Below, piece after piece: positions 12,110-55,191 of a stretch of DNA of 64,000 nucleotides (its first letter is position 1; each line of letters starts with the position of its first letter). The DNA is taken from NCBI GenBank assembly GCA_016218045.1, contig JACRFB010000001.1:186001-250000 (forward strand), read 5' to 3'. Under the pieces are notes generated by a model. It was not told where the DNA came from. It searched no databases and saw nothing but the letters and a program-made list of their open reading frames with translations. The translations under genes were made by a program, and so were the position numbers. This DNA comes from Ignavibacteriota bacterium. Lineage in GTDB: Bacteria; Bacteroidota; Ignavibacteria; SZUA-365.

Positions 12110-13603
12110 ATGCCCCGTCTTCCGAAATCTTTTCAAAATCCATTGAGCTATGTAGGCGCCGGCATCGCTCTCGTGTCACTTTGTTCGACGCTTGTCTTTT
12201 TTATCATGGACATTGCCGGCGCCGTGTCGTCGCCGTATTTGGGAATATTTACGTACATGCTTCTCCCCGGAGTCATGATCTTCGGACTTCTGTTGATTCC
12301 GCTCGGGGCGATGCTCGAGCGCCGGCGTATGCGCAAAACGGGAGGCGCGGAACGCCGTTTTCTGCATATCGACTTGAACCGGCAGACGCATCGCAACGCC
12401 TTTTTGATCTTCGTCGTGGGCACGATGGTGCTCATGATCATTTCGGCGGCGGGAACATACCAGGCGTATAACTACTCCGAATCCGTTGAATTCTGCGGGG
12501 AAGTGTGTCATCAGGTGATGAAGCCCGAATACATCGCCTACCAGCACTCGCCACACGCACGAGTGCGATGCGCTGAGTGCCATATCGGAACGGGAGCCGA
12601 TTGGTTCGTAAAAGCAAAAATTTCGGGGTCATACCAGGTATACTCCGTGCTCTTCAATAAGTACTCGCGCCCGATCGAAACACCCGTGCTCAACCTCCGC
12701 CCTGCGAGGGAAACGTGTGAACACTGCCATTGGCCCGAAAAATTCAGCGCGAATCTCGAGATGGCAAAGACCTATTTCCCACTCGATACAACCGCCGCAA
12801 AACCGTGGAGCATCGTCCTTCAGTTAAAAATTGGAGGCGGGCACAGTGAACTCGGGCAGGTCAGCGGCATCCATTGGCACATGAGCACAACGCACAAGGT
12901 CGAGTATGTCGCGACGGACACAAAGCGACAGGTAATTCCATGGATCCGTTCAACCAATCTTGCAACGGGTAAGGCGCGTGTATTTCGGGCGATTGAAACC
13001 CCGATTCCGGACGAGCAGCTTGCACAGCACGAAACACGCGTTATGGACTGCATCGACTGTCACAACAGGCCCGCGCACATTTATCATCCTCCATTCCGCA
13101 CTCTGAACGATGCGATGGCCCAGAATCGTATACCGGCCACATTGCCCAACATCCGTGCCATCGCCTCGAATGCCCTGACACAGGAATATCAGACCGAGGC
13201 CCAGGCGCTTGGCTCCATCGAATCGTTCATCCGCGAAGAGTACCGCTCAAAAGCGCCTGAAGTCTTTGCTTCACGCCAAGCCGATATTGCCCGCGCTGTT
13301 GCGGACGTGAGACGCATCTACCTGAGAAATTTTTTCCCGGAGATGCGAGTGAGCTGGAAGCACTATCCGAATAATATCGGCCATATGTACAACGAGGGCT
13401 GCTTCCGCTGTCACGACAACCAGCATGCAACCGAGTCCGGAGAAATTCTTACGAACGACTGCAACATCTGCCACAAGATCGTCGCCCAAGGGCCGCAAGG
13501 AGCAATGCGCAGCGATTTTAATGGCATGCCGTTTATACATCCGTCCGACATCGACGGCGCGGAAACCAAGGTCAAATGTACGGAGTGCCATATCGGGGAG
13601 TGA
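12110..13603 (+). CDS. Heptaheme NapC/NrfH-family cytochrome c
   Basis: 497 residues. Two hydrophobic segments near residues 12-65 and another near 100-120 anchor it in the inner membrane. Seven heme-binding sites follow: CGEVCH (a CX3CH site), CAECH, CEHCH, CIDCH, CFRCH, CNICH and CTECH. The first two sites and the intervening KPEYIAYQHSPHARV match the quinol-dehydrogenase head of the NapC/NirT/NrfH family. In that family the first heme takes electrons from menaquinol and its CX2-3CH site is followed by a Met ligand region; here QVMKPEY follows. The C-terminal extension adds hemes beyond the usual four. No catalytic partner such as NrfA or NapA is adjacent, so the acceptor is unknown. Confidence 0.85.
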   Translation: MPRLPKSFQNPLSYVGAGIALVSLCSTLVFFIMDIAGAVSSPYLGIFTYMLLPGVMIFGLLLIPLGAMLERRRMRKTGGAERRFLHIDLNRQTHRNAFLIFVVGTMVLMIISAAGTYQAYNYSESVEFCGEVCHQVMKPEYIAYQHSPHARVRCAECHIGTGADWFVKAKISGSYQVYSVLFNKYSRPIETPVLNLRPARETCEHCHWPEKFSANLEMAKTYFPLDTTAAKPWSIVLQLKIGGGHSELGQVSGIHWHMSTTHKVEYVATDTKRQVIPWIRSTNLATGKARVFRAIETPIPDEQLAQHETRVMDCIDCHNRPAHIYHPPFRTLNDAMAQNRIPATLPNIRAIASNALTQEYQTEAQALGSIESFIREEYRSKAPEVFASRQADIARAVADVRRIYLRNFFPEMRVSWKHYPNNIGHMYNEGCFRCHDNQHATESGEILTNDCNICHKIVAQGPQGAMRSDFNGMPFIHPSDIDGAETKVKCTECHIGE

Positions 13604-19360: not shown

Positions 19361-22300
19361 ATGAACCGTTTGCTCCGCTGTTCCTGCATTTTGCCGGCTC
19401 TTTTGGTGATGCTTCTTGGTGTCACTGTTGCCTCGGCTGCCCCGTCATTTTCCGGAAAGTTCACCCGTTCTTCCGGCAAACAGACAACAACTCGTGGTGC
19501 TGCGATGCGACCCGGCGACCTGATACCGGACGGCACCTCGCCTGCTTTTATCGGTGGTTTTCTTGAAAACCGCGGACAGATTTTCGACTCCGACGGAGCA
19601 CAGCGCAGAGACGTGCTGTACACGGCGGGCGAGGGCGCAATGCGTGCCTTTTTTACAAAGGACCGTGTCAGCTATGTCTTCACCCGCTTTGAAGCCGAGC
19701 CTGCCGGTGCTTCCGAGTCAGAAGAGAATCTCAAGATTACCAGACCGGGCGCGGGGAAAGCCACGAGTTACCGCATGGATCTCGAGATCGTCGGCGCGAA
19801 TCCTGCCTGTGCCGTTCGAGGCGAAAACGAAGAACCGTTAGCTGTGCGCTTCTACAACGGCACGGCATCGTTCGAGGCGCGCTCTTTCGGCATTCTCGTG
19901 TACGAAAATGTTTATCCAAGCATCGATCTTGCGTTTCGTTTCGATGAGGGACGGATCAAATACGAGTTCCGCGTTCGACCCGGCGGGAAGATCTCGGATA
20001 TTCGGCTCCGCTATACCGGCGCGGAACAGCTCGGGCTCGAACCCGACGGCGCCCTCAAAGCGGCGTGTCCCCTCGGCGAGATCCGCGATGCCGCGCCCGT
20101 CTCATATCAGACAACATCATCCGATTATATCCCACCCGCTGGAGCACCGGCACTGCGAAGCAGTTTCCTGCTGGAGAACAACGAGATGACATTCGATATC
20201 GCACAGCACGATGCATCGACGGCGCTTGTCATCGATCCCTCCGTGCAATGGTCAACGTATTACGGTGGTGGAAATGTAGACCATGGCACGGGCATCAGTT
20301 CCGATCCTTCAGGGAATGTCTATGTCGCCGGATATACGTACAGCACAAACCTTCCTGTTACAGCAGGAGCATTGCAGACTTCAAATGCCGGCAATTACGA
20401 CGCGTTTATTGTGAAGTTCAATGCACTCGGCACGCGTCAATGGGCTACGTACATTGGGGGAGCACTCAATGACTTTGCTCTTGGAATCGCCAATGATGCG
20501 GCGGGCAACATCGCGATTACTGGTGAAACCAACAGTCAGAACTACCCGAACACAGGCGCATTTCAATCATTCTTAGCGGGCGCAACCGATGCGTTCCTGA
20601 CCCGGTTGAATTCTGCTGGTGTGCTGCAGTGGTCCACGTACCTCGGTGGTGCCGGTGATGAGACCGGTTTCGGTGTTGCCTTCGACGGCGCAGGGAACGT
20701 CGCAATCACAGGCGAAACGAGCAGCGTAAATTTCCCCGTGTCCTCAGCGGCGTTTCAGCCCTCGCTCGCAGGTGTCGACGATGCCTTTGTGGGCGTCTTC
20801 ACACCGGGTGGCCTGCGCCAGTGGCTCACATATTATGGCGGCACTTTCGGAGATATTGCGAAGGGTGTCACGTATGACGCGGCTGGGAACATCCTCGTCA
20901 CCGGCGGCACGGCGAGTTCGAATTTTCCCATCACTGCGGGCGCTTTCCAAGGCGCTCAACGCGGTGCCGGCGATGCCTTCATCGTAAAAATGTCTGGGGG
21001 AGGAGCACGGATCTGGGCCACGTATGTTGGCGGATCAAATTATGATCTCGCGGGCGGGATTGCATCCGATGACTCCTCTCGCGCAATAATTGTCGGGCAG
21101 ACTGAAAGCAACGATCTTTCGGTGGGTGTTGGCGCATATCGAGGTTTTCGTTCAGGAGGCGACGAGGCTTTCCTGTTTGTTTTTAATGCAAATGGCGCCA
21201 GGGAATGGGCCACGTATTACGGAGGCAATCTCGATGACGTGGCCAATGCGGTCGACGCCGATAAACACGGAAATATTACGTTTGTTGGAACGACGTACAG
21301 CGGAAACTTCCCCGTGTCTCCTTCCACGATTCAGGGAAGTCGAAATGGAACGTCCGATGCGTTCGCCGTCAAATTTTCGCGCATCGGCGGTCGTCTCTGG
21401 GCAACATATTTTGGCGGTGGCGGTGACGATGCGGCCAATGCAGTCGCCATGCAGGCCAGTGGTAATGCGCTACTGACAGGGTGGACTGGCAGTACAAATT
21501 TCCCGATTCTTTCGGGGTATCAACTCTCGTATGCCGGCGGTATCGATGCGTTCGCCACAAAAATTTGTGATGTGAAACCTATCATCACACCCTCGGGCCC
21601 CACAAACCTCTGTGCCGGTGGCACTGTTGTGCTGGATGCAGGCGACGGGTATTCCGTGTACTCCTGGTCGACCGGTGCCTCTACACGCACGATTACCGTA
21701 TCGACGCCCGGACGATATGCAGTCGAGGTTTGGGATGGCATCGGATGTAGCGGCGTGTCGGATTCAATTACTGTCAACGTTGCCCCTCCCCTGCTTGCAG
21801 AAGGTGGTCCCAATCAATCGATCTGCTTCGGAAACAGCATACTGATCGGCGGACTCCCGACCGGTGGTGTAGCACCGTATCAGTACCGATGGACGCCGTC
21901 CACCGGGCTGAACGACAGCACCATCGCGCGTCCCCTCGCCACTCCTACCTCCACGACGAAATACTACGTCACTGTCACCGACGCGTACAACTGCACGAAT
22001 CGCGATTCGGTCGTTGTGACAATCTCCCCGAATCCCGCTGTCAATGCTGGCCGGGATACTCTCATCTGTTACGGCTCAAGTGTGGTCATCGGCAATCTCG
22101 CTACAGGAGGAACCCCTCCGTACACATATCAATGGTCGCCTTCAACCGGCTTGAATGACGACACACTCGCGCAGCCGACCGCGCAACCCACGAGCACCAC
22201 CACATATACGGTGACTACAACAGACGCAAATGGCTGCACCGGTATCGATCAGGTGGTTGTCCGAATCGACCGTGTCATCGCTGATGCAGGAGTCAACAAA

Positions 22301-25300
22301 TCCATGTGCGGCGGCGATAGCGTCCTGATTGGCGGCACTCGAAATTTTGGCATCGGAACTCTTTCGTACTCGTGGTCGCCATCAACAGGATTGACTGCCA
22401 CAAACATCGCGCGCCCACGCGCTTTTCCGGCGGTCACAACCGCGTACACACTCACTGTTACCGACAGTGCGGGCTGTGTCGATACAGATGTTATGGTGGT
22501 GTCGGTGTACGGATCGCTCACTGCCTTGGGCGGCCCGGACCGCTCCATCTGCTATGGATCGGCAACAGTCATTGGCGATACCGCCGTCTGTGGAACCGGA
22601 CCGTATACATATCATTGGAGCCCTCCAACAGGTCTCAACGATACAACCGCTCAACGGCCGACGGCTTCACCACTCACAAACACGACGTATTACCTCCGTG
22701 TCACAGACGCGGCACTTAACACCCACAGCGACACGGTTGTCGTGATCGTCGACCCACTTCCGATTGCGCATGCCGGACCAGACACCCTCATATGCGCCGG
22801 AACATCCGTGCAGATAGGCGCTGTTGCGACCGGCGGAACTGGTCCGTTTTCCTATTCTTGGTCACCCTCCACTGGTCTGAGTTCGAGTACAGTCGCGACT
22901 CCTACTGCCACACCATCGGCAACAACCCGCTACATCGTGCGTGTTAATGACGTCAACGGATGCTCGGACCTTGACACCGTGTTCGTGTCCATCTCGACTT
23001 TGGCAGTTAATTCCGGAGCAGATCAAACGATCTGTTTTGGCGACACTGCCCTCATTGGAAATCCAGCAACAGGCGGCTCTCCCGGTTACACATACCTTTG
23101 GGTCCCGTCTGCGGGTCTGAGTTCCACCGCCACCGCGCGGCCGAAGGCATCACCGGTCACTACGACGACATATTACCAATTTGCTCAGGACCAACGCGGT
23201 TGTATTGTCCTTGATTCGGTTGTTGTTGTCGTCCATCCGCTTCCAATAGCGGAAGCAGGTCCGGGACAGGTCATCTGCCGTTTCGAGGCAACACAAATCG
23301 GCGACACCGCACGTGGCGGCCGGCCACCGTATACATACGCATGGACGCCCGCGACCGGACTCAGCTCCACAACAATCATGCGTCCCGTCGCGCGGCCTTT
23401 GACCTCGACCCAGTATTATCTCACCGTCACGGATGCGAATGGATGCCGTAGCCGCGATTCTGTCGTTGTACTTGTACGTCCATGGCCGACGGTAAATGCT
23501 GGAGCCGACGTGACGATCTGCCGCGGCGACAGCATCCGTATCGGGAGTCTGGCGACTGGTGGTTCCGGTCCTTATCACTATAGATGGACACCCACGAACT
23601 ATCTGAGTGATTCACTCTCGGCAACTCCCATGGTGCGTCCCTTCTTCCCGACGCGATACACCGTGACCGTCACGGATTCAAATGGCTGCCAGGACACAGA
23701 CGACATCTTTGTCGGCGTTGAACCGCGGCCAACAGCAACGATAACTGCAAGCGGTCCCGCAACATTCTGTGAAGGCGACAGCATCCGCCTCAGTGTCGAT
23801 CCCGCGCGTATCTACAGTGGATACGCCTGGTATCGCGATACAACGTTTGTCGACACCGCGCGCGTGATAATTGCGAAGGAGTCGGGTTTGTACCGCGTTC
23901 ATGTGAACACAACAAACGGCTGCAGTGGCGAAGCTATTCCCGTTCAAGTGGTTGTCATACCACTGCCCCGCCCGCGTATTACCACAAGCGGACCACTTAC
24001 GTTCTGCGAAGGTGGAAGCGTCACCTTCGAAAGCGACTCCTCCTACCAGTGGACCTTCCTTTGGTCAGACGGTACAATCGGGCGGAAAAAAGTCGTCACA
24101 ACATCGGGATCGTACTACCTGACCGTAACCGGACCAAATGGGTGTGTCAACACATCTCCAGTCTTTATTGTGACAGTTCATCCTCAGCCGGTTCCAGTCA
24201 TCAAACCGGAGGGCCCAACCTCATTCTGTGCAGGCGGGCGCGTTGTGCTCGATGCCGACCAGGCGGGCGTCTTCACGAGTTACCTCTGGTCAAACGGTGC
24301 GCGTACACGCAAGATTACGGTCACTCAGTCGGGCACGTATTCAGTAACCGTTGCCAATAGTGAAGGTTGTCTTGGAACGTCACCCGCGGTACCGGTTCAG
24401 GTTAATCCCATTCCAGTGCCGGTGATTACAACTTCGAGCGGCAACCTGACATTCTGTGAAGGCGGGAGTGTCACACTGGAGGCACCTGTTGGTTATTCGA
24501 GCTATCTCTGGTCGAACGGTGCGAATACGCGCACAACCACCGTGGACCAGGCGGGAACATACACCGTCACCGTGGTATCAAATACCGGCTGTCAGGGTAC
24601 CTCGACACCCGTTACAGTAACGGTCCGACCACTCCCCAGGCCCGTTGTAACAGCTTTGGGACCGACGTCGTTCTGCGCCGGCGACAGTGTTACACTTGAT
24701 GCGGGAGCTGGATATACGTCTTACCAGTGGTCGAATGGCCGACGGACTCGTAGCATCAGCGTCAAAACCGCCGGAACATTCTCCGTAACGGTCACTGATG
24801 CAAATGGGTGCAGAGGCACATCGGGACAAACAGACATTACTGTGTACGCAAATCCCTCCCCCGTCATTACTGCGTATGGTGCTTTGTCCTTCTGTCCCGG
24901 CGATAGCGTTGTGCTCGATGCCGGGTCGGGCTACGCCAGTTACCAATGGAGTAATGGTGAGTCCACCTCCCGCATCGTCGTGAAGACATCCGGCACCTTT
25001 ACTGTGACCGTGACCAACGCAACGAATTGCATCGGCACCTCCGCACCTGTGACGGTCACCAGGTACCAGACGCCGGCACCACAGATCAGTGCGAATGGAC
25101 CACTCAGTTTTTGCGAGGGTGGAAGCGTCCAACTCGACGCTGGCAGCGGTTGGTCTCGATATCTCTGGTCCACAGGTGCGACAACACGCCGCATCACAGT
25201 TTCTCAAAGCGGTCTATACAACGTCCGTGTCACAAACTCAAACGGGTGCAACGGCGAATCACCCGTGCTCACAATTACCGTGAAGCCGAATCCACTTATT

Positions 25301-25768
25301 CCGCTAATAACTCAGAGTGGCAACACGATTGTTTCGACTCCCGCCACGCGCTACCAGTGGAATTTCTCGGGTGCACCAATTGCCGGCGCAACTCAACGGA
25401 CGTACAATCCGCCTCGTAATGGGCAATATACTGTGACAGTCTGGAATGCCGACAGTTGCTCGAGCACCTCGGCACCCTTCGATTTCCGAGCCGTGGGAAT
25501 CTTTGAGGATGAAAAACCTGTTGCAGGCTTCTCGGTCTATCCTGATCCGAGCCATGGCCTTGTAACGGTGGATCTCCGCCTCGACACACCAGCCGCGGTT
25601 CGCCTCGTGCTAATGGACATGCTCGGGCGCATCGTGTACGATCAGAACGAAGACCAGACAATGGCGATTCTGCAGAAGCTCGACATACAGAAATTACCTG
25701 ACGGTCTGTACTTCCTTCATGTAACCGCAGGGAAACAAACTCTCATGAGAAAACTCCTCAAGCAGTAA
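19361..25768 (+). CDS. Giant secreted T9SS protein: SBBP propeller plus Ig-like repeats
   Basis: 2135 residues. A signal peptide (about 1-27) is followed by a region starting FLENRGQIF (near 66), typical of proteins carrying SBBP repeats. Seven SBBP repeats lie at about 294-735, each opening W(A/S)TYxGG and containing GNxxxTGxT and DAF; seven is the count of a full beta propeller. One Ig-like repeat then leads to eight repeats of type A (about 807-1458; AGxxxxIC ... YxWxPSTGL). Eight repeats of type B follow (about 1459-2043; GPLSFCEGGSV ... YLWSNG), the last without its cysteine. The final ~85 residues (FSVYPDPSHGLVTV ... LPDGLYFLHV) form a type A T9SS sorting domain. It is probably an adhesin or surface-displayed scaffold; the binding partner is unknown. 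A strong terminator follows. Confidence 0.88.
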   Translation: MNRLLRCSCILPALLVMLLGVTVASAAPSFSGKFTRSSGKQTTTRGAAMRPGDLIPDGTSPAFIGGFLENRGQIFDSDGAQRRDVLYTAGEGAMRAFFTKDRVSYVFTRFEAEPAGASESEENLKITRPGAGKATSYRMDLEIVGANPACAVRGENEEPLAVRFYNGTASFEARSFGILVYENVYPSIDLAFRFDEGRIKYEFRVRPGGKISDIRLRYTGAEQLGLEPDGALKAACPLGEIRDAAPVSYQTTSSDYIPPAGAPALRSSFLLENNEMTFDIAQHDASTALVIDPSVQWSTYYGGGNVDHGTGISSDPSGNVYVAGYTYSTNLPVTAGALQTSNAGNYDAFIVKFNALGTRQWATYIGGALNDFALGIANDAAGNIAITGETNSQNYPNTGAFQSFLAGATDAFLTRLNSAGVLQWSTYLGGAGDETGFGVAFDGAGNVAITGETSSVNFPVSSAAFQPSLAGVDDAFVGVFTPGGLRQWLTYYGGTFGDIAKGVTYDAAGNILVTGGTASSNFPITAGAFQGAQRGAGDAFIVKMSGGGARIWATYVGGSNYDLAGGIASDDSSRAIIVGQTESNDLSVGVGAYRGFRSGGDEAFLFVFNANGAREWATYYGGNLDDVANAVDADKHGNITFVGTTYSGNFPVSPSTIQGSRNGTSDAFAVKFSRIGGRLWATYFGGGGDDAANAVAMQASGNALLTGWTGSTNFPILSGYQLSYAGGIDAFATKICDVKPIITPSGPTNLCAGGTVVLDAGDGYSVYSWSTGASTRTITVSTPGRYAVEVWDGIGCSGVSDSITVNVAPPLLAEGGPNQSICFGNSILIGGLPTGGVAPYQYRWTPSTGLNDSTIARPLATPTSTTKYYVTVTDAYNCTNRDSVVVTISPNPAVNAGRDTLICYGSSVVIGNLATGGTPPYTYQWSPSTGLNDDTLAQPTAQPTSTTTYTVTTTDANGCTGIDQVVVRIDRVIADAGVNKSMCGGDSVLIGGTRNFGIGTLSYSWSPSTGLTATNIARPRAFPAVTTAYTLTVTDSAGCVDTDVMVVSVYGSLTALGGPDRSICYGSATVIGDTAVCGTGPYTYHWSPPTGLNDTTAQRPTASPLTNTTYYLRVTDAALNTHSDTVVVIVDPLPIAHAGPDTLICAGTSVQIGAVATGGTGPFSYSWSPSTGLSSSTVATPTATPSATTRYIVRVNDVNGCSDLDTVFVSISTLAVNSGADQTICFGDTALIGNPATGGSPGYTYLWVPSAGLSSTATARPKASPVTTTTYYQFAQDQRGCIVLDSVVVVVHPLPIAEAGPGQVICRFEATQIGDTARGGRPPYTYAWTPATGLSSTTIMRPVARPLTSTQYYLTVTDANGCRSRDSVVVLVRPWPTVNAGADVTICRGDSIRIGSLATGGSGPYHYRWTPTNYLSDSLSATPMVRPFFPTRYTVTVTDSNGCQDTDDIFVGVEPRPTATITASGPATFCEGDSIRLSVDPARIYSGYAWYRDTTFVDTARVIIAKESGLYRVHVNTTNGCSGEAIPVQVVVIPLPRPRITTSGPLTFCEGGSVTFESDSSYQWTFLWSDGTIGRKKVVTTSGSYYLTVTGPNGCVNTSPVFIVTVHPQPVPVIKPEGPTSFCAGGRVVLDADQAGVFTSYLWSNGARTRKITVTQSGTYSVTVANSEGCLGTSPAVPVQVNPIPVPVITTSSGNLTFCEGGSVTLEAPVGYSSYLWSNGANTRTTTVDQAGTYTVTVVSNTGCQGTSTPVTVTVRPLPRPVVTALGPTSFCAGDSVTLDAGAGYTSYQWSNGRRTRSISVKTAGTFSVTVTDANGCRGTSGQTDITVYANPSPVITAYGALSFCPGDSVVLDAGSGYASYQWSNGESTSRIVVKTSGTFTVTVTNATNCIGTSAPVTVTRYQTPAPQISANGPLSFCEGGSVQLDAGSGWSRYLWSTGATTRRITVSQSGLYNVRVTNSNGCNGESPVLTITVKPNPLIPLITQSGNTIVSTPATRYQWNFSGAPIAGATQRTYNPPRNGQYTVTVWNADSCSSTSAPFDFRAVGIFEDEKPVAGFSVYPDPSHGLVTVDLRLDTPAAVRLVLMDMLGRIVYDQNEDQTMAILQKLDIQKLPDGLYFLHVTAGKQTLMRKLLKQ

Positions 25769-26668: not shown

Positions 26669-26876
26669 CGTTTCAAGGCACGGCTGTCGGACGCCTCGCG
26701 TCAGGCGCAACGTCTTAGTTGTGACTTCCCCGATTGATGTCACGGGTTCTAGCATCATGGGTTCATCCTAGAAGCGAGAACTTGCCGCCGCACCTGATGC
26801 GCAAGATGTACGAGGAGGCGAATTTTCCTATCTTCTATTTTTGAATCCTGATCCTCAACCAGCCAAAGAGTATTCC
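26669..26876 (+). promoter_or_regulatory. Upstream region of the subtilisin gene with a TATTTTTG box
   Basis: No gene is seen in this ~208-nt stretch. A perfect Bacteroidota -7 box TATTTTTG lies at 26836-26843 and would start transcription about 25 nt before the ATG at 26877. No TTTG is found at the matching -33 distance, so only half of the promoter is supported. Confidence 0.35.
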
Positions 26877-29800
26877 ATGCGCGTATCGTTCTTCGTACTG
26901 GCCGCAATTCTCGCCATGATCGTTCTTGCACCGACCGAGATGCTTGCGGGAACACCCGAGAAACCCACTCGCCCGGATCGCGGGCAAGGTTCAATTCAGG
27001 TAGCGCAAGGATTGCTGTTCCTTTCGTTTGTAGAAGGTGCCGGCGTACGCGTTACCGGAACGAATACGGGCTTGTCCGCTGTGGATGGCATCCTCACGCG
27101 AATACGTGTTAGAAGTGTCGAGACCCTCTTCGCACCAGCACCTCTTAGGAAAGCCCCGTTGAGCCCGCAGGAAGCCGCTCTGGCGCGAACCGTGAAAATC
27201 CGCTTTGATGCGGAGGACGATCCGCGCGCAGTGTCGAAAGAGCTGTCCGCATTGCCCGGAGTTTCATATGCGGAGCCGTACTACATTTACCCGTACCTCC
27301 ACACCCCCAACGATCCGCGCCTCACGCAGCAATGGGCGGTTACGGTGATGAAGCTGCAGGAAGCATGGGACATTACAACCGGCGACAGCACGATTATCAT
27401 CGGCGACGTCGACTCCGGAGTGGATTGGACACACCCCGATCTACAGCCAAGCATCTACATCAACAAACGGGAATGGGGCAGCACCGGTGAACTCAGTACC
27501 AACGGGATCGATGACGACAACAACGGCAAGGTCGATGATTGGCACGGCTGGGATTTTATTGGAAACGGTTCGGCGCAGAGCCCCAATCCGGACAACAATC
27601 CCATGGACGGGGCAATCGGACATGGAACGAACACATCCGGCTGCGCAGGCGCATTGGCGAATAACGGTATCGGTATCGCCGGATCGAGCTACCGTGCAAA
27701 GATCCTCGCCGTTAAAGCCGCCGGCGAAAGTACGGCAGGTATCGCAGACGGGTACAACGGAATCCTGTACGCCGCTGATATGGGCTGCAAGATTATCACG
27801 TGCAGTTGGGGAGGTACAGGTGCATTCAGCGCAACCTTGCAGAATGTAATCAACTATGCCTGGTCGAAGGGCGCACTCGTTCTTGGATCCTCGGGCAACA
27901 ACCCGCTGGACAATGATCGCATTCCTCATTGGCCGTCTTCTTTCGATCACGTGGTGAATGTCGGATCGATCGAGTCGAACGGAACAGCCTCGAACTGGTG
28001 CACGTATGGCACGTCTGTCCACGTCTATGCCCCCGGTTCAGGAGTGTGGACTACAGCAAAGGGGGGTGGGTACGATAATCCGACTGGCACATCCTTTTCG
28101 ACGCCTCTCGTAGCCGGCGTCGCGGCACTCATCTTTAGCGTGCACCCGTCATGGACACCAGATCAGGTTGCCAAGCAGTTGCGCGTTACAGCCGACGGAT
28201 TTGTGAATCCTCCGCAAGCCAAGCGTTTCGGACGCGTCAATGCACTACGCGCGGTTTCGGCCAACAACATGATGGCCGACATACCGGGCATCCAGTTGAA
28301 AAATTTCACGGTATCCACCCCATCCGGCACAATGTTCACGCAGCCGGGACAATCAGCAACTGTAACGTTCGACCTGGAAAACGTGTTGGCTCCCACGTCC
28401 GCATCCGCCATGGCCATGTTGGAGTTCGACGATACCACCTTCAGCGCCAGCAATTGGAGCGCATCGCTAGGTGCCATCCCGACTTTCGGGACGAAATCTC
28501 TCAGCTTCACTATCCGCCTGAGTGACAACCCCTCGGGTTCAGAGGAGTATGTACCCGTCCGATTGAAAATCACAGACGGCGCGTACACGGATTATGTGAT
28601 GGGGCGCGTCATCGTGTATCTCGATAAGGGATGGCATACCGCGCTGAATGTCAACGCACCTGCATTCAGTTCCATAGATGTAGTGAATAGTCAATCGGTG
28701 TGGGCAACGGTCGACGTCGTGCAAAATCAGGTCCCCGTGGCGGATTATTGCTACCGGTACAACATCGACACATGGTACCAGGCGTATGGCACGGGATTCC
28801 CCGGTGGTGCGGGCGTATACTGCATACATGGTTTGAATGCCAGCACAGCGCTCATCGGTACGGGGCCAAGAACCGGCGCTGCCGAGATTTGCCGTACCGA
28901 GAACGGGGGACAGTCGTGGACCCGTACATCCGTCTCGAACATTACACCTTTTGTTGATGCCATCCATATGTTCGATGCGCGCAACGGCATCTTTGTCGGT
29001 GACCCGAAAAATGGAGTGTGGGGCATCGGTACAACTACAGATGGCGGTGCCACTTGGGCTCCGATAAGTCCATCTCTGACAGCCCCTGGAACCGAGGCAG
29101 GTTGGAATAATGCGATGGATTTTGTTGGTGATATCGGATGGTTCGGTACCAATAATGGAAAGATCTATAAGACAACAAATCGTGGGGCGACGTGGACGTC
29201 GTACCCGACACCCGGCACCCACTCCGTTGATGTGTCTTTCCGCGATGCAAGCACGGGCGCCATCCGTTTCGCGGCTCAAAATGGCGTGGGGATAAACGGC
29301 GTGGCGGTAACAACAAATGGGGGCTCCACATGGACGCTCCTGAACACCATACAGCTCGTGGACGGAAGCGGAGCCGTGGTGATGGAACGCGGAGGAAAGA
29401 GACTGTGGCTCCTGCACAACAATAATGTCTACGAATCCTCGGATCTCGGAAAGAAATGGACGATGCAGGCACGTCCCTCGGGTATGGCAGTGACAGTATC
29501 CGACCAGTGGTCCGGCAATAATGAGACCCACGTGTATGCAGCCGGCTTGAATGTGTTTCGCTTCATCTCCCCTTTTGATCCGGTCACAACGACTGAATCG
29601 CTGCCGGAAGCGCTGCCGACCGGCCCGGTGTTTCTCAGCATGTCTCCCAACCCTGTGAATACTCCGCAGGTACACATTCAATTCAGGATCGATGCATCCG
29701 ATATTACCGAGATCACATTGTATGACTTCGCGGGTCGTCCTGTGCGGAAAGCGTTCCATGCGGTTCTCGATGCAGGGACGCACTCGACAGTGCTTAACAT

Positions 29801-29888
29801 AGACGGACTGGCGGCTGGAGTGTATTACTGCACTTTGAGCAGCGGCCGCTTGTCCGCCACACAGGCCCTCGTACTTCCTGGCCGATAG
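26877..29888 (+). CDS. Subtilisin-like S8 protease with BNR-type repeats and T9SS tail
   Basis: 1003 residues from the ATG at 26877, which begins the signal peptide MRVSFFVLAAILAMIV; an in-frame ATG at 26841 is less likely. A propeptide-like region (to about 140) is followed by the S8 domain with catalytic Asp179 (DVDSGVDW), His249 (GHGTNTSG) and Ser406 (GTSFSTPLVAG). After the protease comes an Ig-like stretch near 480-590. Repeats with GGQSW, GGATW, GATW and GGSTW turns, of the BNR/Ycf48 propeller kind, lie at about 630-880. The last ~90 residues (FLSMSPNPVN ... LAAGVYYCTL) are a T9SS sorting domain. It is a cell-surface or secreted protease; substrates are unknown. Confidence 0.92.
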   Translation: MRVSFFVLAAILAMIVLAPTEMLAGTPEKPTRPDRGQGSIQVAQGLLFLSFVEGAGVRVTGTNTGLSAVDGILTRIRVRSVETLFAPAPLRKAPLSPQEAALARTVKIRFDAEDDPRAVSKELSALPGVSYAEPYYIYPYLHTPNDPRLTQQWAVTVMKLQEAWDITTGDSTIIIGDVDSGVDWTHPDLQPSIYINKREWGSTGELSTNGIDDDNNGKVDDWHGWDFIGNGSAQSPNPDNNPMDGAIGHGTNTSGCAGALANNGIGIAGSSYRAKILAVKAAGESTAGIADGYNGILYAADMGCKIITCSWGGTGAFSATLQNVINYAWSKGALVLGSSGNNPLDNDRIPHWPSSFDHVVNVGSIESNGTASNWCTYGTSVHVYAPGSGVWTTAKGGGYDNPTGTSFSTPLVAGVAALIFSVHPSWTPDQVAKQLRVTADGFVNPPQAKRFGRVNALRAVSANNMMADIPGIQLKNFTVSTPSGTMFTQPGQSATVTFDLENVLAPTSASAMAMLEFDDTTFSASNWSASLGAIPTFGTKSLSFTIRLSDNPSGSEEYVPVRLKITDGAYTDYVMGRVIVYLDKGWHTALNVNAPAFSSIDVVNSQSVWATVDVVQNQVPVADYCYRYNIDTWYQAYGTGFPGGAGVYCIHGLNASTALIGTGPRTGAAEICRTENGGQSWTRTSVSNITPFVDAIHMFDARNGIFVGDPKNGVWGIGTTTDGGATWAPISPSLTAPGTEAGWNNAMDFVGDIGWFGTNNGKIYKTTNRGATWTSYPTPGTHSVDVSFRDASTGAIRFAAQNGVGINGVAVTTNGGSTWTLLNTIQLVDGSGAVVMERGGKRLWLLHNNNVYESSDLGKKWTMQARPSGMAVTVSDQWSGNNETHVYAAGLNVFRFISPFDPVTTTESLPEALPTGPVFLSMSPNPVNTPQVHIQFRIDASDITEITLYDFAGRPVRKAFHAVLDAGTHSTVLNIDGLAAGVYYCTLSSGRLSATQALVLPGR

Positions 29889-30015: not shown

Positions 30016-31668
30016 TTACTGCACAGTCACATCTCCTATGTCTTTGGTCTCTCCGAGCGCAGGAGTTGTCACGTCCAGCGTTTTGGATTTCTGGTTTGCG
30101 TAGAAGTGCATTGTCACCGTGACATTCGGTCGGACAGAAACAGTAAATTTACCGTCTGGACCTGTCGGAGTTTCTCTGTTCTGTCCTCCGGACGACCCAT
30201 TTCCAGACACGACAATGTATGTGTTTGCGATGGGGGCACCCGCACCGTCCACAACGCGGCCGCTGATGTACGCACCGCCGATGTCAACCTTAATGTCACC
30301 CACATCGACCGTACCAGGAGTTGTCGGGCAGGTCACCTGCACTGTCTTGCTCTGTTTGGCGGAATCGGCATACCACGCAGCCTCAACCGTATACGTCCTT
30401 CCGGCTTCGCCGAAGAAACGGAAGCGACCATCCTGGCTGGTGACGATGTAGTCGATTTGGCGCCCTGAATCATTCTGGAGAATCACCTGCATGTAAGCCA
30501 GGGGTTTGCCGCCGTTGTCCACCACGCGACCAATGATGGAACAGAACAACGATGTGTCAACCGGGATGACGATGGTACCGATGTCGGAAGATTGGCCGGT
30601 TGGCGGAGTTGGGACATCCTTCGGAGCGCTAGAAACGATGTAGTAATTCGCGACAACACGCGCAGTCGCCGACGATTTCACTGCGAGTTTGAATCGACCC
30701 TCTCCATCGGTGACAGTCCTGGATGAACCAGTGTAATCAACGCCAGTATGTTTGACGGTGGCAAAAGAAAGCGGGTTTCCATTACCGTCAACAACTCTGC
30801 CTTCGAGATACGATGTCGCGTTCGGCTGATCGCAATTCCAATTGCTGAAATGCGTGACGCTGCCTACATAGTTGTTGCCGACTTTGTTGGCGCTACCCTG
30901 TTCGATCCATTGCCCCTTCACTTCGTGATAATACCAAAGGGGAATTGTTTGCGGCGCCCGTGCACGAAGCGCGACTGGGATGGGGAAGGTGATCGTCGAG
31001 GGCTTTCCGGCAGCAAGCTGCAGCGGTGCGGTGCCGTTCAAGATTTCGACGTTTACAAAACCGAACGACTCGATACTGGTTTCTGACCCATCAGTTCGAA
31101 CACCCGCAAACTCGCCTGGAAAACATTCCGTGAATCGGGTCAGCGACGGATCGCACCACGTGGCCTTTACTTGCGCCGTACCGGTGAAAGCAGCACCAGA
31201 TGCATCCACGAGTGCGTTGGGCTGGAACAGAACCGTTGCACCGCCGTTCATAGTAACCGTACCGCCGTTCGCCGCATTCAACGTTGACCTCACTCCGACG
31301 GTTTGCATAGCCGCATCAAGCCACGTGGCACGACCCTTGACTACAGGCGTGATTTTCTGCGTGGTGACAAAGGCGTCATTGCGGAAGTTGACAAGAACTC
31401 GTGTCCCCGCAGGCACTTGGTCGAGAAAATACTCGCCCTTGGAATTCGTGTAGGTTGACCGGGTTCCGACCCGGACTTCGACCCCCGATAGTGGTGAACC
31501 CGACATCGTGAGAACCTTTCCGGTTACAACACCAACGCCTGTACTACCGCCGGTACCTTGGCTCAGGTCGCCGGTTGGACCCGTAGTTGTCTGACAGGCC
31601 GAAAGCACCGTCAAGACGGTTAACGCCATTGCCAAAACAATTCGTCGAGTACCAAGTGATTTTCTCAT
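30016..31668 (-). CDS. Lipoprotein with carboxypeptidase-regulatory-like repeats
   Basis: 550 residues. A lipoprotein signal with lipobox VLSAC (Cys25) points to an outer-membrane lipoprotein. A carboxypeptidase-regulatory-like beta domain (GKVLTMSGSPLSGVEVRV) opens the mature part. A central region (about 130-290) has GGTVTMNGGATVLFQPNALV and later VTHFSNWNCD, which recalls the CILP/FAM171-type domain. Three more regulatory-like domains follow, each starting (G/S)RVVDGxGxPL and ending near a DIGxI strand. These domains are small adhesive beta sandwiches common in Bacteroidota surface proteins. The ATG at 31668 has GAGG at a good distance. Ligand unknown. Confidence 0.8.
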   Translation of the reverse strand: MRKSLGTRRIVLAMALTVLTVLSACQTTTGPTGDLSQGTGGSTGVGVVTGKVLTMSGSPLSGVEVRVGTRSTYTNSKGEYFLDQVPAGTRVLVNFRNDAFVTTQKITPVVKGRATWLDAAMQTVGVRSTLNAANGGTVTMNGGATVLFQPNALVDASGAAFTGTAQVKATWCDPSLTRFTECFPGEFAGVRTDGSETSIESFGFVNVEILNGTAPLQLAAGKPSTITFPIPVALRARAPQTIPLWYYHEVKGQWIEQGSANKVGNNYVGSVTHFSNWNCDQPNATSYLEGRVVDGNGNPLSFATVKHTGVDYTGSSRTVTDGEGRFKLAVKSSATARVVANYYIVSSAPKDVPTPPTGQSSDIGTIVIPVDTSLFCSIIGRVVDNGGKPLAYMQVILQNDSGRQIDYIVTSQDGRFRFFGEAGRTYTVEAAWYADSAKQSKTVQVTCPTTPGTVDVGDIKVDIGGAYISGRVVDGAGAPIANTYIVVSGNGSSGGQNRETPTGPDGKFTVSVRPNVTVTMHFYANQKSKTLDVTTPALGETKDIGDVTVQ

Positions 31669-31933: not shown

Positions 31934-32983
31934 ATGAATCGCCTCAGCCCTCAATATCTGCTTCGAATGCTGCTCGTCATCACCGCGTGCTTGGTTGCGG
32001 GTTGCGGCGCTGATGCGCCAGTGACTGTGCCTGCCATCTATTATTGGAGAACGGAATTCGCACCTGATTCGCTCACAAGGGTTCATCTTGAGGTAAACGG
32101 CATCAGGGTGCTCTATGTACGTTTCTTCGATGTCGAGTGGAGTGAGGCCGGTGGACAGCCGATGCCGACCGGACAGATCCATTTCTCCCGCGCCCCGGAT
32201 GAAGGTTGGATCATCGTCCCAGTTGTCTATATCACCGTGGAGGCCCTGCGCCGTCTTGATCTTGCAGACGTGCCCGACATCGCGAGCAAAGTTCTCTCCC
32301 AAGTGGATTCGATTTCTTCCCGTTCCGGAATCAGCTTCAAGGAATTTCAGCTCGACTGCGACTGGACCCCAAGCACACGTGAAAAATTCTTCACATTTGC
32401 CTCCATCATACGTGGTCGACTGCACGCGCGCGATGTGCTTCTCTCGGCAACGGTACGACTGCATCAGGTAAAATATCCCGACCGCACAGGCATTCCGCCT
32501 GTCGATCGCGGGATGTTGATGTTCTATAACATGGGACGCATCAGCGCTGCGCCTGGCGAGAATTCAATATTCGATGAGGCGATAACGCGCCGATACACGG
32601 ATTATATCGACACGTATCCGCTTGCACTCGACATCGCGCTGCCCATATTCCATTGGACGCTGCATTTCCGTGGTGGCCACCCCGTTGGGATAATCAACAA
32701 GTTTTCCGATGCAGATCTGTCGGCACACCCCGAATTGCTGCGTGGTGAGCATGGCCAGTTCACCGCGGTCCGGCATGTCTGGCTTCATGGTGAATCTGTG
32801 TTGCCCGGTGACGTACTCAGATCCGAGGAGGTTCCGCCGGACCTGTGCCTTCGAGCCGCCAAGCTTGCGTCCGCTGAACTCCCTCCCGCTCAGCGCCGAA
32901 TAGCCCTCTTCGAAGCTGATTCTGTGTATCTTTCGCATTATGAAATCTCAGATATCGACGCGGTATTTCGCGCTTTCAAGTAG
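31934..32983 (+). CDS. Lipoprotein of unknown function, first of a coupled pair
   Basis: 349 residues with a lipoprotein signal (LLVITACLVAGC, lipobox VAGC). The mature part shows an alternating beta/alpha pattern: VLYVRFFDVEW, IIVPVVYITVEAL, FQLDCDWTPSTREKF, VLLSATVRLHQV, GMLMFYNMGRI, LDIALPIFHW. This order, with acidic and aromatic residues at strand ends, resembles a TIM-barrel glycoside-hydrolase-like fold or DUF3142-type proteins. I do not recognise it with certainty, and no catalytic acid pair can be assigned. Its last 44 nt overlap the start of the next gene in another frame, so the two are translationally linked. I infer that they act together at the cell envelope. Confidence 0.8.
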   Translation: MNRLSPQYLLRMLLVITACLVAGCGADAPVTVPAIYYWRTEFAPDSLTRVHLEVNGIRVLYVRFFDVEWSEAGGQPMPTGQIHFSRAPDEGWIIVPVVYITVEALRRLDLADVPDIASKVLSQVDSISSRSGISFKEFQLDCDWTPSTREKFFTFASIIRGRLHARDVLLSATVRLHQVKYPDRTGIPPVDRGMLMFYNMGRISAAPGENSIFDEAITRRYTDYIDTYPLALDIALPIFHWTLHFRGGHPVGIINKFSDADLSAHPELLRGEHGQFTAVRHVWLHGESVLPGDVLRSEEVPPDLCLRAAKLASAELPPAQRRIALFEADSVYLSHYEISDIDAVFRAFK

Positions 32984-35210
32984 CATATTCGTTATCTGCG
33001 CGTCCATTGTGGCACTGGCATGCGCCTGGTTCGACGAAGAGTCGCTGCACTACTCGTTTTTCACCCCTGAGCTTCACCGTGCCGAGTACGACAGGCCCTT
33101 CTTCCGAAGCTTTAGAACCTTGTACACCCAGATGACGAAGGACGACAACATTTCAGACTTTACACAGGTGAATGTTGGAGAGTGGAGAGATTACCTCGGT
33201 GTCGACGTTGATACTGCAGACATTGCATTCCTGCTTGGTGGCGCACGAATCGGACAGATCGACACTTTGATCCGGCGGCAGGGGACTGCAATTTTTCCCG
33301 CGGCCGCTTCACTCTCTTCAAATTCGATTTTAAAGGCACGGGACGCTCGCGCCGCACGGGACTTTCTGTTTTTTCTCGGTTACGCCAAACGCTGCGAACC
33401 TTACGCTACGTTCATTCCGGGCTGGGAGTGGGAAGTCGGACACTCCACTCCCGATCCACGCACAGATGTCACCGCACTGAACGCGCTCGCATCCTCCGGC
33501 CTCCGCGCCATGTCAAACGCACGCGATCCCTTCGTGCGTGCACGATATCTCTTTCAGGTGCTGCGCCTGCGGTTCCATGCGCGGCAGTACGATGCATGCG
33601 TGAAACTGTATCACGATCGCGCGAGCGAATTCTCACCGGGCCGAAGCGTCGCATGGCGCGCGATGGCGTACGCGGCAGGCGCATTTCACAGAATGAAACG
33701 CTTCGAGGATGCCAACCTCCTTTTTATGCGCGCCCGCGAAGGGTGTCCCACCCTTCGAGTGGTATCGCATCTCGGCTATCATCCTCTATCGGGAGCTGCG
33801 TGGACGCGTTGTCTCGCCCGGGCTGCATCACCACGCGAACGCGCGGTGCTCTGGCAGATGCAAGGCGTCTATGGCGATCCAGTAGAGGCGATGAACGCTA
33901 TCGCCGCACTTGATCCATCCTCCGATTTACTCGACCTTCTTCTTGTGCGGGCAATCAACATCGCCGAGGAATCCTTCATGCCCGATCCATTCGGCTATGG
34001 TAGCCCGGGCACGAAAGAAGACTACGCATTTCGGGTGCGCGCGTTGGATCCAGGATTGATCGCTCTTGTCGATCGTATGGCAGTCGAACCGCGTGTGCGT
34101 TCGGCGCCGTTGTGGAATCTCGCCGCGGGCTACCTTCGCGTCATCGCAGGAAGATACGCCGATGCAGCGGAGTTCCTCCGCCGCGCCAGAATAGGGGCTC
34201 AAGACGATATTCTCGTCGCCGAACAGGCACGGAGTATCTCGATTGTGAGTCGCATTGAAACTGCCGCCTATCCCGACCCCGCCTTCGAAATGGATATCGT
34301 TCCAGAGTTATTGTGGCTGCGGGATTCGCTTCACACAGCCGGGCTGCGCGCACAACGTGTGTATGACTGGGCGTTAAAACGCCTTTCGAGGCGCTACGAA
34401 TCGCAAGGCGATGCGGTGCGCGCACAGTGCCTGTTACCCGCCTCAGCACCGGATTACCATCGCGATCCCGTAAAACGACGTGCACTTCTAGCCCTGATGG
34501 ATAAAACCGAGAAGACGGATTTCGAGAAATTCCTGCTCGGTCAATATCCCTTCTCGAAAAAGGACATCGTGGAAGTGCAGGCGGTGGAGTTGCTGTACAA
34601 GTATCGATTCGAGGAAGCCGTAGAGATGTTTGATTCATTCCCAGCATCTGGAAGCGACACACTGCCCGGTGATCCTTTTCTCATTCATATCAACGATTGC
34701 CATGACTGCGATCACGCCGCGCCACAGGCTGTTCGATACACAAAGGCAGATTTTGCCAGACGCATGGTCGCGCTGAAACGCGAGATCGAGCGTGATCACG
34801 CACGGGCATCTGCCGGGCTGTTCACCCTTGCGAACGGGATCTACAACATGTCGTATTTCGGAAACGCTCGACGTCTGTATGAGACTGCGATTTTTCCGTA
34901 CGGACTGCAAGATCTGAATGCAGTGCGCGACGGGCACCTCACAGCGATCATGGATTGTTCGACCGCGGAGTCCGCATATAAGGCGGCGATGCAGCGATCC
35001 ACCGATGCCGAATTCCAGGCCCGCTGTGCTTTTATGGCTGCCAAGTGCGAACAGAACATCTACTTCATGACCCGTGGTGGCGAAACATCAGACGATTTTC
35101 GCGCGGGTACCTGGTTCACCCTTCTCCGAGATCGGTATGCAACCACGGAGTATTACAAGGACATCATCAGGGAATGCGGGTACTTCCGCACATTTACTTC
35201 AAAAAAATAG
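32940..35210 (+). CDS. Large helical-repeat envelope protein, second of a coupled pair
   Basis: 756 residues, starting inside the preceding lipoprotein gene. An N-terminal hydrophobic segment ends in IVALACAW, a signal peptide or imperfect lipobox. The mature protein begins with a conserved-looking aromatic stretch (FFTPELHRAEYDRPFF). Most of the rest (about 190-570 and 620-740) is helix-turn-helix repeats of TPR/SEL1 character (RARYLFQVLRLRFHARQYD, AGGYLRVI-like units). A short cysteine/histidine cluster, NDCHDCDH near residues 584-591, stands out and could bind a metal. I recall similar proteins in Bacteroidota opening with CGGGDW-type motifs, but none with a known role. Confidence 0.8.
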   Translation: MKSQISTRYFALSSSIFVICASIVALACAWFDEESLHYSFFTPELHRAEYDRPFFRSFRTLYTQMTKDDNISDFTQVNVGEWRDYLGVDVDTADIAFLLGGARIGQIDTLIRRQGTAIFPAAASLSSNSILKARDARAARDFLFFLGYAKRCEPYATFIPGWEWEVGHSTPDPRTDVTALNALASSGLRAMSNARDPFVRARYLFQVLRLRFHARQYDACVKLYHDRASEFSPGRSVAWRAMAYAAGAFHRMKRFEDANLLFMRAREGCPTLRVVSHLGYHPLSGAAWTRCLARAASPRERAVLWQMQGVYGDPVEAMNAIAALDPSSDLLDLLLVRAINIAEESFMPDPFGYGSPGTKEDYAFRVRALDPGLIALVDRMAVEPRVRSAPLWNLAAGYLRVIAGRYADAAEFLRRARIGAQDDILVAEQARSISIVSRIETAAYPDPAFEMDIVPELLWLRDSLHTAGLRAQRVYDWALKRLSRRYESQGDAVRAQCLLPASAPDYHRDPVKRRALLALMDKTEKTDFEKFLLGQYPFSKKDIVEVQAVELLYKYRFEEAVEMFDSFPASGSDTLPGDPFLIHINDCHDCDHAAPQAVRYTKADFARRMVALKREIERDHARASAGLFTLANGIYNMSYFGNARRLYETAIFPYGLQDLNAVRDGHLTAIMDCSTAESAYKAAMQRSTDAEFQARCAFMAAKCEQNIYFMTRGGETSDDFRAGTWFTLLRDRYATTEYYKDIIRECGYFRTFTSKK

Positions 35211-35233: not shown

Positions 35234-36235
35234 TCAGTCCTTAAGCCACGACTTCCATTTTTCCCTGAAATCACGCGCGTTCGCCTTGGTGACAACCGTG
35301 AGTGTATCAACGATACGCACGGAGGCGGGTGTTGTGTTGCGAACGATTCGCTCAAGAAGAATCTCCACGGCGCGTCGCCCCCAACCGTAGCAGTCCTGTG
35401 CGAGCAGAGCCTGCACATGGCCGGAATCCAGATACTCGAGCTGTGGGGGAAGCGCATCGACCGCGACGACTTTAACCGATCCTGCAGGCCACTTTAGAGC
35501 CCCCTTGGTAAACAAAGGCCAACCGCCTACCATCGCCCACCCCGAAATTTCCGGATTGAGCGACTGCGCACGATTCACCATCTCGGCGGCCTGTTCTGGC
35601 GTTTCCGCGTGATAATAGATCCCATTCCGAGCCAGGGTGATGCCCGGATGCTTCACGAGTTCCCCGCGCACTCCTTCGACTCGCGCCTGCAGATTGGGCG
35701 CGCTTTGGTTTCCCGCGAGAATCGCAATCATTCCCTTCTCACCCAGCTCAACGGCTAGACGCCGCATCACTGCTTCGCCACACCGCAGATCATCCGTACC
35801 GAAATAACAGAACCGCTTGCTCCTAGGGGCATCGGAGTCGAAGCACATCACATGTGCACCGAGGCCGACCGCTTTATCGATAGCGGGAGTCACCGTATTG
35901 GCGTCGCTGCACGAAACGGCGATTCCTTGTGCACCGCTTCGCGCAAGCTGCTCGATCGCATCTGCCTGCTTCTGTGCATTTTCTTCCGGGGGTGTCATCC
36001 ATCGCACGTCCACTTCTACCCCGTAGCGCGGACCAAGTTCGCGGGCAGCATCGAGGGCCCCGCGGTGGGCGGCCTGAAACACCGCGTTTGCCTGGCTTTT
36101 CGCAACGAGCCCGATAACCACGACAGGACGGCCTTCCGATGTGTTTTTTTTCTCCCCGCCGCATGATGCGATAAGAGCGGCACCGGCAATGACGACAGAA
36201 CACACGGCTCCTCGGAGCCCAAGAAACGACATCAT
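35234..36235 (-). CDS. Ribose-type ABC transporter substrate-binding lipoprotein
   Basis: 333 residues. A lipoprotein signal ends in LIASC, then a type I periplasmic binding fold follows. The opening strand VVVIGLVAKSQANAVFQAAHRGA, the GIAVSCSDANTVTPAID segment and HVMCFDSDAPRSKRF match the sugar-binding RbsB/LacI-like family. The lipid anchor fits a solute receptor held at the membrane. The start overlaps the stop of the permease gene (ATGA), so the two are translationally coupled. No ATPase gene accompanies them. The ligand, probably a pentose or other monosaccharide or a nucleoside-like compound, cannot be told by eye. Confidence 0.88.
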   Translation of the reverse strand: MMSFLGLRGAVCSVVIAGAALIASCGGEKKNTSEGRPVVVIGLVAKSQANAVFQAAHRGALDAARELGPRYGVEVDVRWMTPPEENAQKQADAIEQLARSGAQGIAVSCSDANTVTPAIDKAVGLGAHVMCFDSDAPRSKRFCYFGTDDLRCGEAVMRRLAVELGEKGMIAILAGNQSAPNLQARVEGVRGELVKHPGITLARNGIYYHAETPEQAAEMVNRAQSLNPEISGWAMVGGWPLFTKGALKWPAGSVKVVAVDALPPQLEYLDSGHVQALLAQDCYGWGRRAVEILLERIVRNTTPASVRIVDTLTVVTKANARDFREKWKSWLKD

Positions 36236-37347
36236 GATCTTTTACCTCGTATAAGTGACGCGACACCCGCTGGATGTTGGTGTCTGAAATGATCGCTGAC
36301 ACGGTCGATCGCCACGGCCGCAATAATCGCGCACCCGATGATAATCTTGCTGTATTCCTTTGAAACCGTGATCATCACGAAGCCGAGATCCAGCTTCTGG
36401 ATGATATCAATCCCGTTCTCAATCAACTTGATGACCACCGCTCCGAGGACCGCACCCAAGGCGGATCCCCTCCCTCCGGACAAGCTCGCACCGCCGACAA
36501 CTGCCGCGGCGATCACGGTCAATTCGTACCCTTCACCTGTTGCGGTGTTGGCCGAGCCGTAGTAGCCAGCGGACAGGAGTCCGGCCAGCCCTGCCATAAT
36601 TCCCGATATCAGGTATACTCGGAAGGTAAGGGATCTGACGGGAAGTCCACTGAAACGGGCCGCTTCGGCATTTCCTCCAAGAGCATAGATCCGCCTTCCC
36701 TCAACCGATCTGGAGAGAAGAAGCCAGGCGCACACGACGATGCATACCATCACAAGCATGGGGACTGGCTGCAGACGTGCCCATGCAAAGGGCCCGCTTC
36801 CCCACTCCAACGAAACGAATCCGCTGGTGAAAGCGGCAGGAAGTGCCTTGCCCCATGCGGGAAGCGATTTCGTCTCCACTGATACGAGCGCTAGCCCACG
36901 CAAAACACTCATAGTTCCAAGTGTCACGATGAAAGGATGAAGTCCGAGGCTGACGATGAGCCCACCATTCAACGCACCACACACTGCACCAATACCGATT
37001 GCGGCGATGAATGCCACAACGAGAACGGTCCCCGGTCCGCAGTCGGCAGGAAGGTTCTGCAATACCGCACAAGTGCCGAGTGCGGCGCAGCCGAAGATGG
37101 ATCCAACCGAGATATCGATTCCTCCGGAGATGATGACGAAGGTTACCCCGATGGCCATGATGGCCATCCACGATACCGGTGTGATCACATTGGGAATAAT
37201 GTTATCGACTCGGAGAAAATTGTTCACCACCGTTCCACGTATGTTCACGGAATCGGATGCAAACGTGAGAAAGAGGCATAGAACAAGAATCACGAAGAGG
37301 AGGCCTGCCTCCTGAATCGCCCAAGCACGTTTATAAGAAAGCCCCAC
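36232..37347 (-). CDS. Ribose-type ABC transporter permease
   Basis: 371 residues with about ten hydrophobic helices of the RbsC/BPD_transp_2 family. Landmarks are FVIISGGIDISVGSIFG near residue 70, GLHPFIVTLGTMSVLRG near 135, and AAVVGGASLSGGRGSALGA near 285. The GTG start is preceded by GAGGT at 9 nt. It is the first gene of the operon: upstream lies only a 169-nt (or longer) gap before the divergent sensor kinase. The only partner is the binding-protein gene, so the ATP-binding subunit (RbsA type) must come from elsewhere or is missing. Confidence 0.9.
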   Translation of the reverse strand: MGLSYKRAWAIQEAGLLFVILVLCLFLTFASDSVNIRGTVVNNFLRVDNIIPNVITPVSWMAIMAIGVTFVIISGGIDISVGSIFGCAALGTCAVLQNLPADCGPGTVLVVAFIAAIGIGAVCGALNGGLIVSLGLHPFIVTLGTMSVLRGLALVSVETKSLPAWGKALPAAFTSGFVSLEWGSGPFAWARLQPVPMLVMVCIVVCAWLLLSRSVEGRRIYALGGNAEAARFSGLPVRSLTFRVYLISGIMAGLAGLLSAGYYGSANTATGEGYELTVIAAAVVGGASLSGGRGSALGAVLGAVVIKLIENGIDIIQKLDLGFVMITVSKEYSKIIIGCAIIAAVAIDRVSDHFRHQHPAGVASLIRGKRS

Positions 37348-55032: not shown

Positions 55033-55191
55033 GCTTCCTCCGACGTCAAATGTGTTCATCCATTGGAAAATACAACAGGACACGTTCTCTCGCGCAACCG
55101 CGATACTCACGATCCGCCTTGCCTCGCATTCTCCCCGTGAAGTAGTTTGCGGAACTTTACCAGTTCATCTTGTTCAATTGCGAGAGACACT

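Follow-up and report, generated by a model that had tools for sequence, protein, structure and literature searches.

An overlapping gene pair encoding a GH18-like barrel lipoprotein and an exported helical-repeat protein: a candidate two-protein envelope module of Bacteroidota

The closest described counterparts of the two proteins treated here are the GH18 glycosidases and the TPR solenoid proteins of the bacterial envelope. GH18 chitinases and the spore cortex-lytic enzyme SleL are (beta/alpha)8 barrels that carry the signature DxxDxDxE, including the catalytic Glu, on strand beta4 and the motif MxYD on beta6; as in other TIM-barrel enzymes, active sites are found at the C-terminal ends of the strands. 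Envelope TPR solenoid proteins combine all-helical repeats with a signal peptide. A third point of comparison is DUF3142 (PF11340), a family of lipoproteins recorded with function unknown and mentioned a single time, in one paper, in the full-text literature searched. Here, a pair of overlapping genes, P1 and P2, is described whose products resemble these proteins in part. The components are not categorically new, and as far as our searches show the pair itself is undescribed. The reading that we favour, with moderate confidence, is that P1 and P2 constitute a two-protein envelope module in which P1 is glycan-active or glycan-binding and P2 is its dedicated partner.

The window analyzed, a stretch of 64,000 nucleotides, lies on contig 1 of an assembly of 4.77 Mb. 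P1 (31934-32983, + strand, 349 aa) and P2 (32940-35210, + strand, 756 aa) share exactly 44 nt (32940-32983), with P2 in the +1 frame relative to P1; both reading frames and their overlap lie precisely where the first-pass annotation had placed them. Since the genes on both flanks, encoding a carboxypeptidase-regulatory-domain protein (30016-31668) on one side and an ABC transporter (binding protein 35234-36235, permease 36232-37347) on the other, are located on the - strand, the pair looks like an operon of two genes. A scan for sigma-70 promoters, which is uninformative in this phylum, found none. Neither protein of the window matches a Pfam or NCBIfam family, and sequence searches against PDB chains returned chance-level matches only. 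Elsewhere in the window, type IX secretion C-terminal sorting domains are present on three proteins (19361-25768, 26841-29888 and 52144-55110), among them a subtilase and a 2135-aa beta-propeller-repeat/Ig protein, which makes a secretion system of this type probable in the organism. In addition, a NapC/NirT-like cytochrome and a multi-CXXCH cytochrome-like protein (12110-13603 and 59949-61988) hint at multiheme electron transfer.

The earlier description of P1 as a TIM-barrel-like lipoprotein agrees with an AF2 model generated from a 33-row alignment (A1), which reached a pLDDT of 95.1 and a pTM of 0.90. The best fold matches identified by Foldseek in the PDB are GH18 chitinases and SleL (5jh8, 4s3j; E ~1e-10, starting from 9.4e-11 for a GH18 chitinase; TM ~0.5), and the chitinase-like proteins SI-CLP and RobpsCRA agglutinin, whose names do not present them as enzymes, are also among the matches. 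P1 follows the strand order of GH18 proteins and contains a beta-rich insertion before the last strand (approximately residues 240-300) that resembles the chitinase insertion, whereas identity in the fold alignments is limited to 8-15% and a single one of 33 P1 relatives matches GH18 at the sequence level (E 3.5e-4). P1 departs from GH18 at beta4, where it presents Q139-L-D141-C142-D143-W144 (32348-32365) in place of DxxDxDxE and the catalytic Glu is missing. This QLDCDW motif is invariant across all rows of A1; in a larger set of 60 homologues, D141, D143 and W144 are retained without exception, while Q139 is replaced by Leu in three (L078, L083, L111) and C142 by Tyr in one (L078). At the end of beta5, the segment TVRLHQ (residues 173-178, 32450-32467) contributes T173 and R175, and the segment LMFYN (residues 195-199, 32516-32530) places an MxYN where GH18 proteins carry MxYD on beta6; T173, R175, M196 and Y198 occur in all full-length sequences, and N199 varies in four. 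The putative correspondence between residues of P1 and GH18 at beta4 and beta6 follows from strand order and known GH18 anatomy. In the predicted model, the conserved residues gather where the strands of the barrel terminate on the C-terminal side, in a strongly conserved polar and aromatic pocket. As modelled, P1 is thus GH18-like in its fold but lacks the catalytic signature of GH18.

P1 starts with a signal peptide and the lipobox LVAG-C24 (31934-32005), and in most of its relatives the signal peptide likewise ends with a Cys, placed before the barrel. In four of them (L003, L004, L009, L012), an uncleaved-looking transmembrane start takes the place of the lipobox Cys, so that membrane anchoring appears to be conserved by either means. 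Surface lipoproteins of Bacteroidota carry an acidic export signal after this Cys. Because such a signal is mostly absent in P1, where the residues that follow are mostly neutral or basic, the protein probably faces the periplasm. Of the two locations initially put forward, the periplasm is accordingly retained and the cell surface becomes less likely.

For P2, the AF2 model is a long, all-helical solenoid (pLDDT 85.5, pTM 0.75), in line with its first description as a helical-repeat protein. Its fold matches in the PDB are exclusively solenoids, mostly of the TPR or HEAT type, with E values of ~1e-3 and low TM scores. Single TPR models weakly match some of its relatives, whereas the P2 of the window remains under the cut-off of every curated TPR model (best TPR_14, E 0.99). 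The envelope signal noted at the outset is of the Sec type and ends in IVALA-C28. This Cys28 (33021-33023) is invariant in alignment A2 and is the predicted mature start; the residues that precede it often break the lipobox (TRAC, NNAC, AEAC, VWAC) and better fit an AxA-type site cleaved by signal peptidase I just before the Cys. In a comparison of P2 sequences with and without the Cys/His motif NDCHDCDH, Cys28 is present in 100% of motif-bearing and 94% of motif-lacking proteins, and two C-terminal cysteines are similarly conserved: Cys703 (35046-35048; 97% and 75%) and Cys746 (35175-35177; 100% and 88%). These cysteines, together with NDCHDCDH in one subfamily, distinguish P2 from known envelope TPR solenoids.

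Taken as a module, P1 would be lipid-anchored in the membrane and face the periplasm, where its pocket might bind or cleave a carbohydrate, whether peptidoglycan, some other glycan of the envelope or an imported one, with the modified acid pair D141/D143 standing in for the D/E of GH18. P2 would be synthesized in step with P1, and its helical repeats may dock on the barrel and position either P1 or the substrate of P1. The parts of this proposal differ in strength: a direct physical contact between the two proteins is likely, and an activity on or affinity for glycan is somewhat favoured, while a catalytic role of P1, as opposed to binding only, is somewhat less likely than not; with the catalytic Glu missing, P1 may bind without cleaving. 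This same absence, with QxDxD in place of DxxDxDxE, sustains the main rival, in which P1 is a catalytically dead, GH18-like binder of glycan or partner with a lectin-like or structural role and P2 is the active component or a receptor for another protein. The presence of SI-CLP and RobpsCRA agglutinin among the fold matches would suit such a protein, as would the conservation of cysteines in P2, near-complete for Cys28 and high for Cys703 and Cys746. On the other hand, the pocket motif is kept throughout the P1 family, which would be unusual in a mere scaffold, and its two central positions stay acidic. A dead barrel is a possible explanation that we consider less probable than the module with a glycan-directed P1.

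That P1 and P2 very probably form a functional unit is suggested by their distribution. An initial scan that covered one genome per species, and that was biased toward the motif because NDCHDCDH was among the search patterns, yielded 32 loci with P2 relatives. P1 was located directly upstream of P2 in 28/28 loci that hold both genes, and in the other four (L006, L028, L030, L033) the P2 match begins at or near a contig edge. A second, motif-free sampling with P1 and P2 profiles across 247 Bacteroidota genomes detected P1 in 27, P2 in 28 and both in 26 genomes, which are spread over 12 families. The only genome with P1 alone (G230) contains a truncated remnant, and the two with P2 alone (G005, G200) contain weak P2-like matches over short stretches (E 4e-4 and 9e-4). 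Apart from two exceptions, P1 and P2 are direct neighbours in these 26 genomes. One exception, G156, has a P1 that stops 47 nt short of a contig end and a truncated P2 that opens another contig, the latter matching the Ignavibacteria MAG L006; in the other, G178, P1 and P2 are found at separate loci, which counts against the module reading. Across 56 loci, the divergence of P1 and that of P2 are correlated (r = 0.82, permutation maximum 0.26), with shared species history contributing to this value. In a comparison of neighbourhoods, no third conserved gene was detected at the P1-P2 loci: neighbouring genes are common only to Pedobacter-like or other small groups, which rules out a larger conserved operon, and the neighbourhoods hold no pointer to a substrate. 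The view of the first-pass annotation that the genes form an undescribed, tightly linked envelope pair is upheld by these counts and by the correlated divergence. Some genomes of family f25 (G206, G025, G245) possess two paralogous P1-P2 pairs.

The overlap is likewise kept among homologues. Counted with ATG starts, its length is 41 nt for the majority of pairs from f25 (the best-represented group sampled), 44 nt, as in the window, for Breznakibacter, L024, L029, L032 and others, and 71 nt for the majority of Pedobacter and Mucilaginibacter, and the relative frame of these overlaps is nearly always identical among homologous pairs. The homologues of P1 are mostly 25-39% identical, and because gene order and overlap phase recur across phyla, neither the reading frames nor their overlap is, judged from the sequences, due to chance. 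Compared with short overlaps, those of ~10-60 nt are roughly four times less frequent and favour the same phase as the P1-P2 overlap, and subunits of complexes are enriched among gene pairs at short distance (Huber et al., PMC10666635). The initial statement that long overlaps mark tight translational coupling proved loose, since the published evidence for coupling concerns short overlaps (PMC10666635). In light of these overlap statistics, the arrangement is consistent with translational coupling and suggestive of it, short of proof. An alternative is that P1 and P2 are merely co-expressed to serve related tasks in the envelope, with the overlap a relic of a compact operon and the products making no contact. 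The restriction of published strict coupling to short overlaps and the relative rarity of overlaps of ~10-60 nt fit this explanation, as do the gaps that replace the overlap at three f22 loci (L074, L075, L077) and in one Pedobacter (L019). Set against near-perfect co-occurrence in 12 families and the absence of other conserved neighbours, mere co-expression is unlikely.

The Cys/His cluster NDCHDCDH, found at residues 585-592 of P2 (34692-34715) as first reported, had been put forward as a metal or active site, and an extension of this idea makes it the metal/redox core of the whole system. When mapped on a tree of 56 P2 sequences, NDCHDCDH or its K/E variants (KDCHDCDH, KDCHDCEH) occur in 39/42 members of one clade (support 0.89) that includes the Deltaproteobacteria and Kofleriaceae MAGs, a very strict conservation that speaks in favour of this idea. 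The motif is nevertheless missing from all 14 P2 homologues outside the clade, most of which keep their P1 partner, and it has also been lost within the clade in L065 and in L006, where two of the three P2 copies arranged in tandem lack it. In G206, one pair has the motif and the other does not, and the P2 of the second pair lacks it wherever it could be aligned (G206, L083). As paired homologues without the motif are common, NDCHDCDH is, on the basis of the P2 tree, a subfamily feature and not the core of the system, for which it is a quite improbable candidate; its use as a universal signature is excluded by the profile-based sampling. The near-invariant site of the pair is found instead in P1, namely QxDCDW, R175 and MxYN. 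Within its subfamily, NDCHDCDH may form a disulfide or bind metal and so modify P2. A heme c site was ruled out, because CHDCDH is not CXXCH, and no mention of NDCHDCDH was found in the full-text literature searched. The tandem P2 copies, of which only the middle one retains the motif, are located at positions 1-7051 of L006 (corresponding to G156:C11). They probably lie downstream of one P1 across the contig break, and their differences suggest specialization after duplication.

The distribution of the pair also shows that it can be absent from close relatives: P2 is missing from 11/11 sampled members of the family of the window organism, and the pair is therefore accessory. Outside Bacteroidota, two MAGs carry it, one from Deltaproteobacteria (L029) and one from Kofleriaceae (L032). 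Since P1 is found in 1/189 genomes of the phylum of Kofleriaceae, solely in the Kofleriaceae genome itself, a transfer is suggested. Such patchiness, with both genes in 26/247 genomes of the phylum, would fit accessory cargo, e.g. a defence or competition module, but this explanation is highly improbable given that PADLOC and a plasmid collection return no matches, which speaks against a defence system and plasmid cargo, that both proteins bear export signals and that no mobile genes are common to the loci.

With these alternatives weighed, the module formed by P1 and P2 can be compared with DUF3142, of which P1 is probably a distant relative. PF11340 is weakly matched by 6/33 P1 relatives (best E 1.4e-4), while the P1 of the window has no match even at E up to 1 (gathering cut-off 30 bits). 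A profile comparison with hhalign aligned P1 to DUF3142 over 201 collinear columns (E 1.8e-4, probability 48%), with only four sequences on the DUF3142 side, and set QLDCDW on EVDHDC; a reverse HMM search is weak, with the best matches falling on the same region. Like P1, DUF3142 proteins are lipoproteins of similar length, with a putatively shared [E/Q]xDxD at beta4, and they adjoin an exported protein of ~635-775 aa that usually has a Cys at its mature N-terminus. Six DUF3142-like loci were examined (L124, L125, L126, L127, L128, L130). In 5/6 of these loci, from the phylum of Kofleriaceae, the exported protein is encoded immediately downstream, and short overlaps between both genes exist at most loci. 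The mature partner starts with ACGP in L124, L125, L127 and L128 and with PCT in L126. A Xanthomonas plasmid repeats the order of DUF3142 followed by its partner (ACGPEFP), whereas in Providencia the order is reversed: the gene of a 714-aa exported protein comes first and shares 31 nt with the short DUF3142 gene that follows. Our searches gave no earlier account of such a neighbour as a DUF3142 partner. Sequence similarity between P2 and the DUF3142 partners was not detected, and the two barrel families differ further in their complementary distribution across phyla, DUF3142 exceeding the cut-off in 1/247 Bacteroidota genomes and in 4/113 genomes of the phylum of Kofleriaceae. It is tentatively hypothesized that P1 and DUF3142 represent an unrecognized family of glycan-active barrels with an [E/Q]xDxD centre and a dedicated exported helical-repeat partner with an N-terminal Cys, i.e. 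an undescribed two-part envelope machine common to Bacteroidota, Pseudomonadota and Myxococcota.

In comparison with GH18 proteins, the near-obligate link to a TPR-like protein sets P1 apart, in addition to its altered beta4 motif. The pair represents a conserved, unannotated unit in which an orphan barrel has kept a very strongly conserved pocket, and through it DUF3142 obtains both a probable fold and a partner, along with a likely motif for the active site. As common laboratory strains of Flavobacterium and Pedobacter carry the pair, its function is directly testable there.
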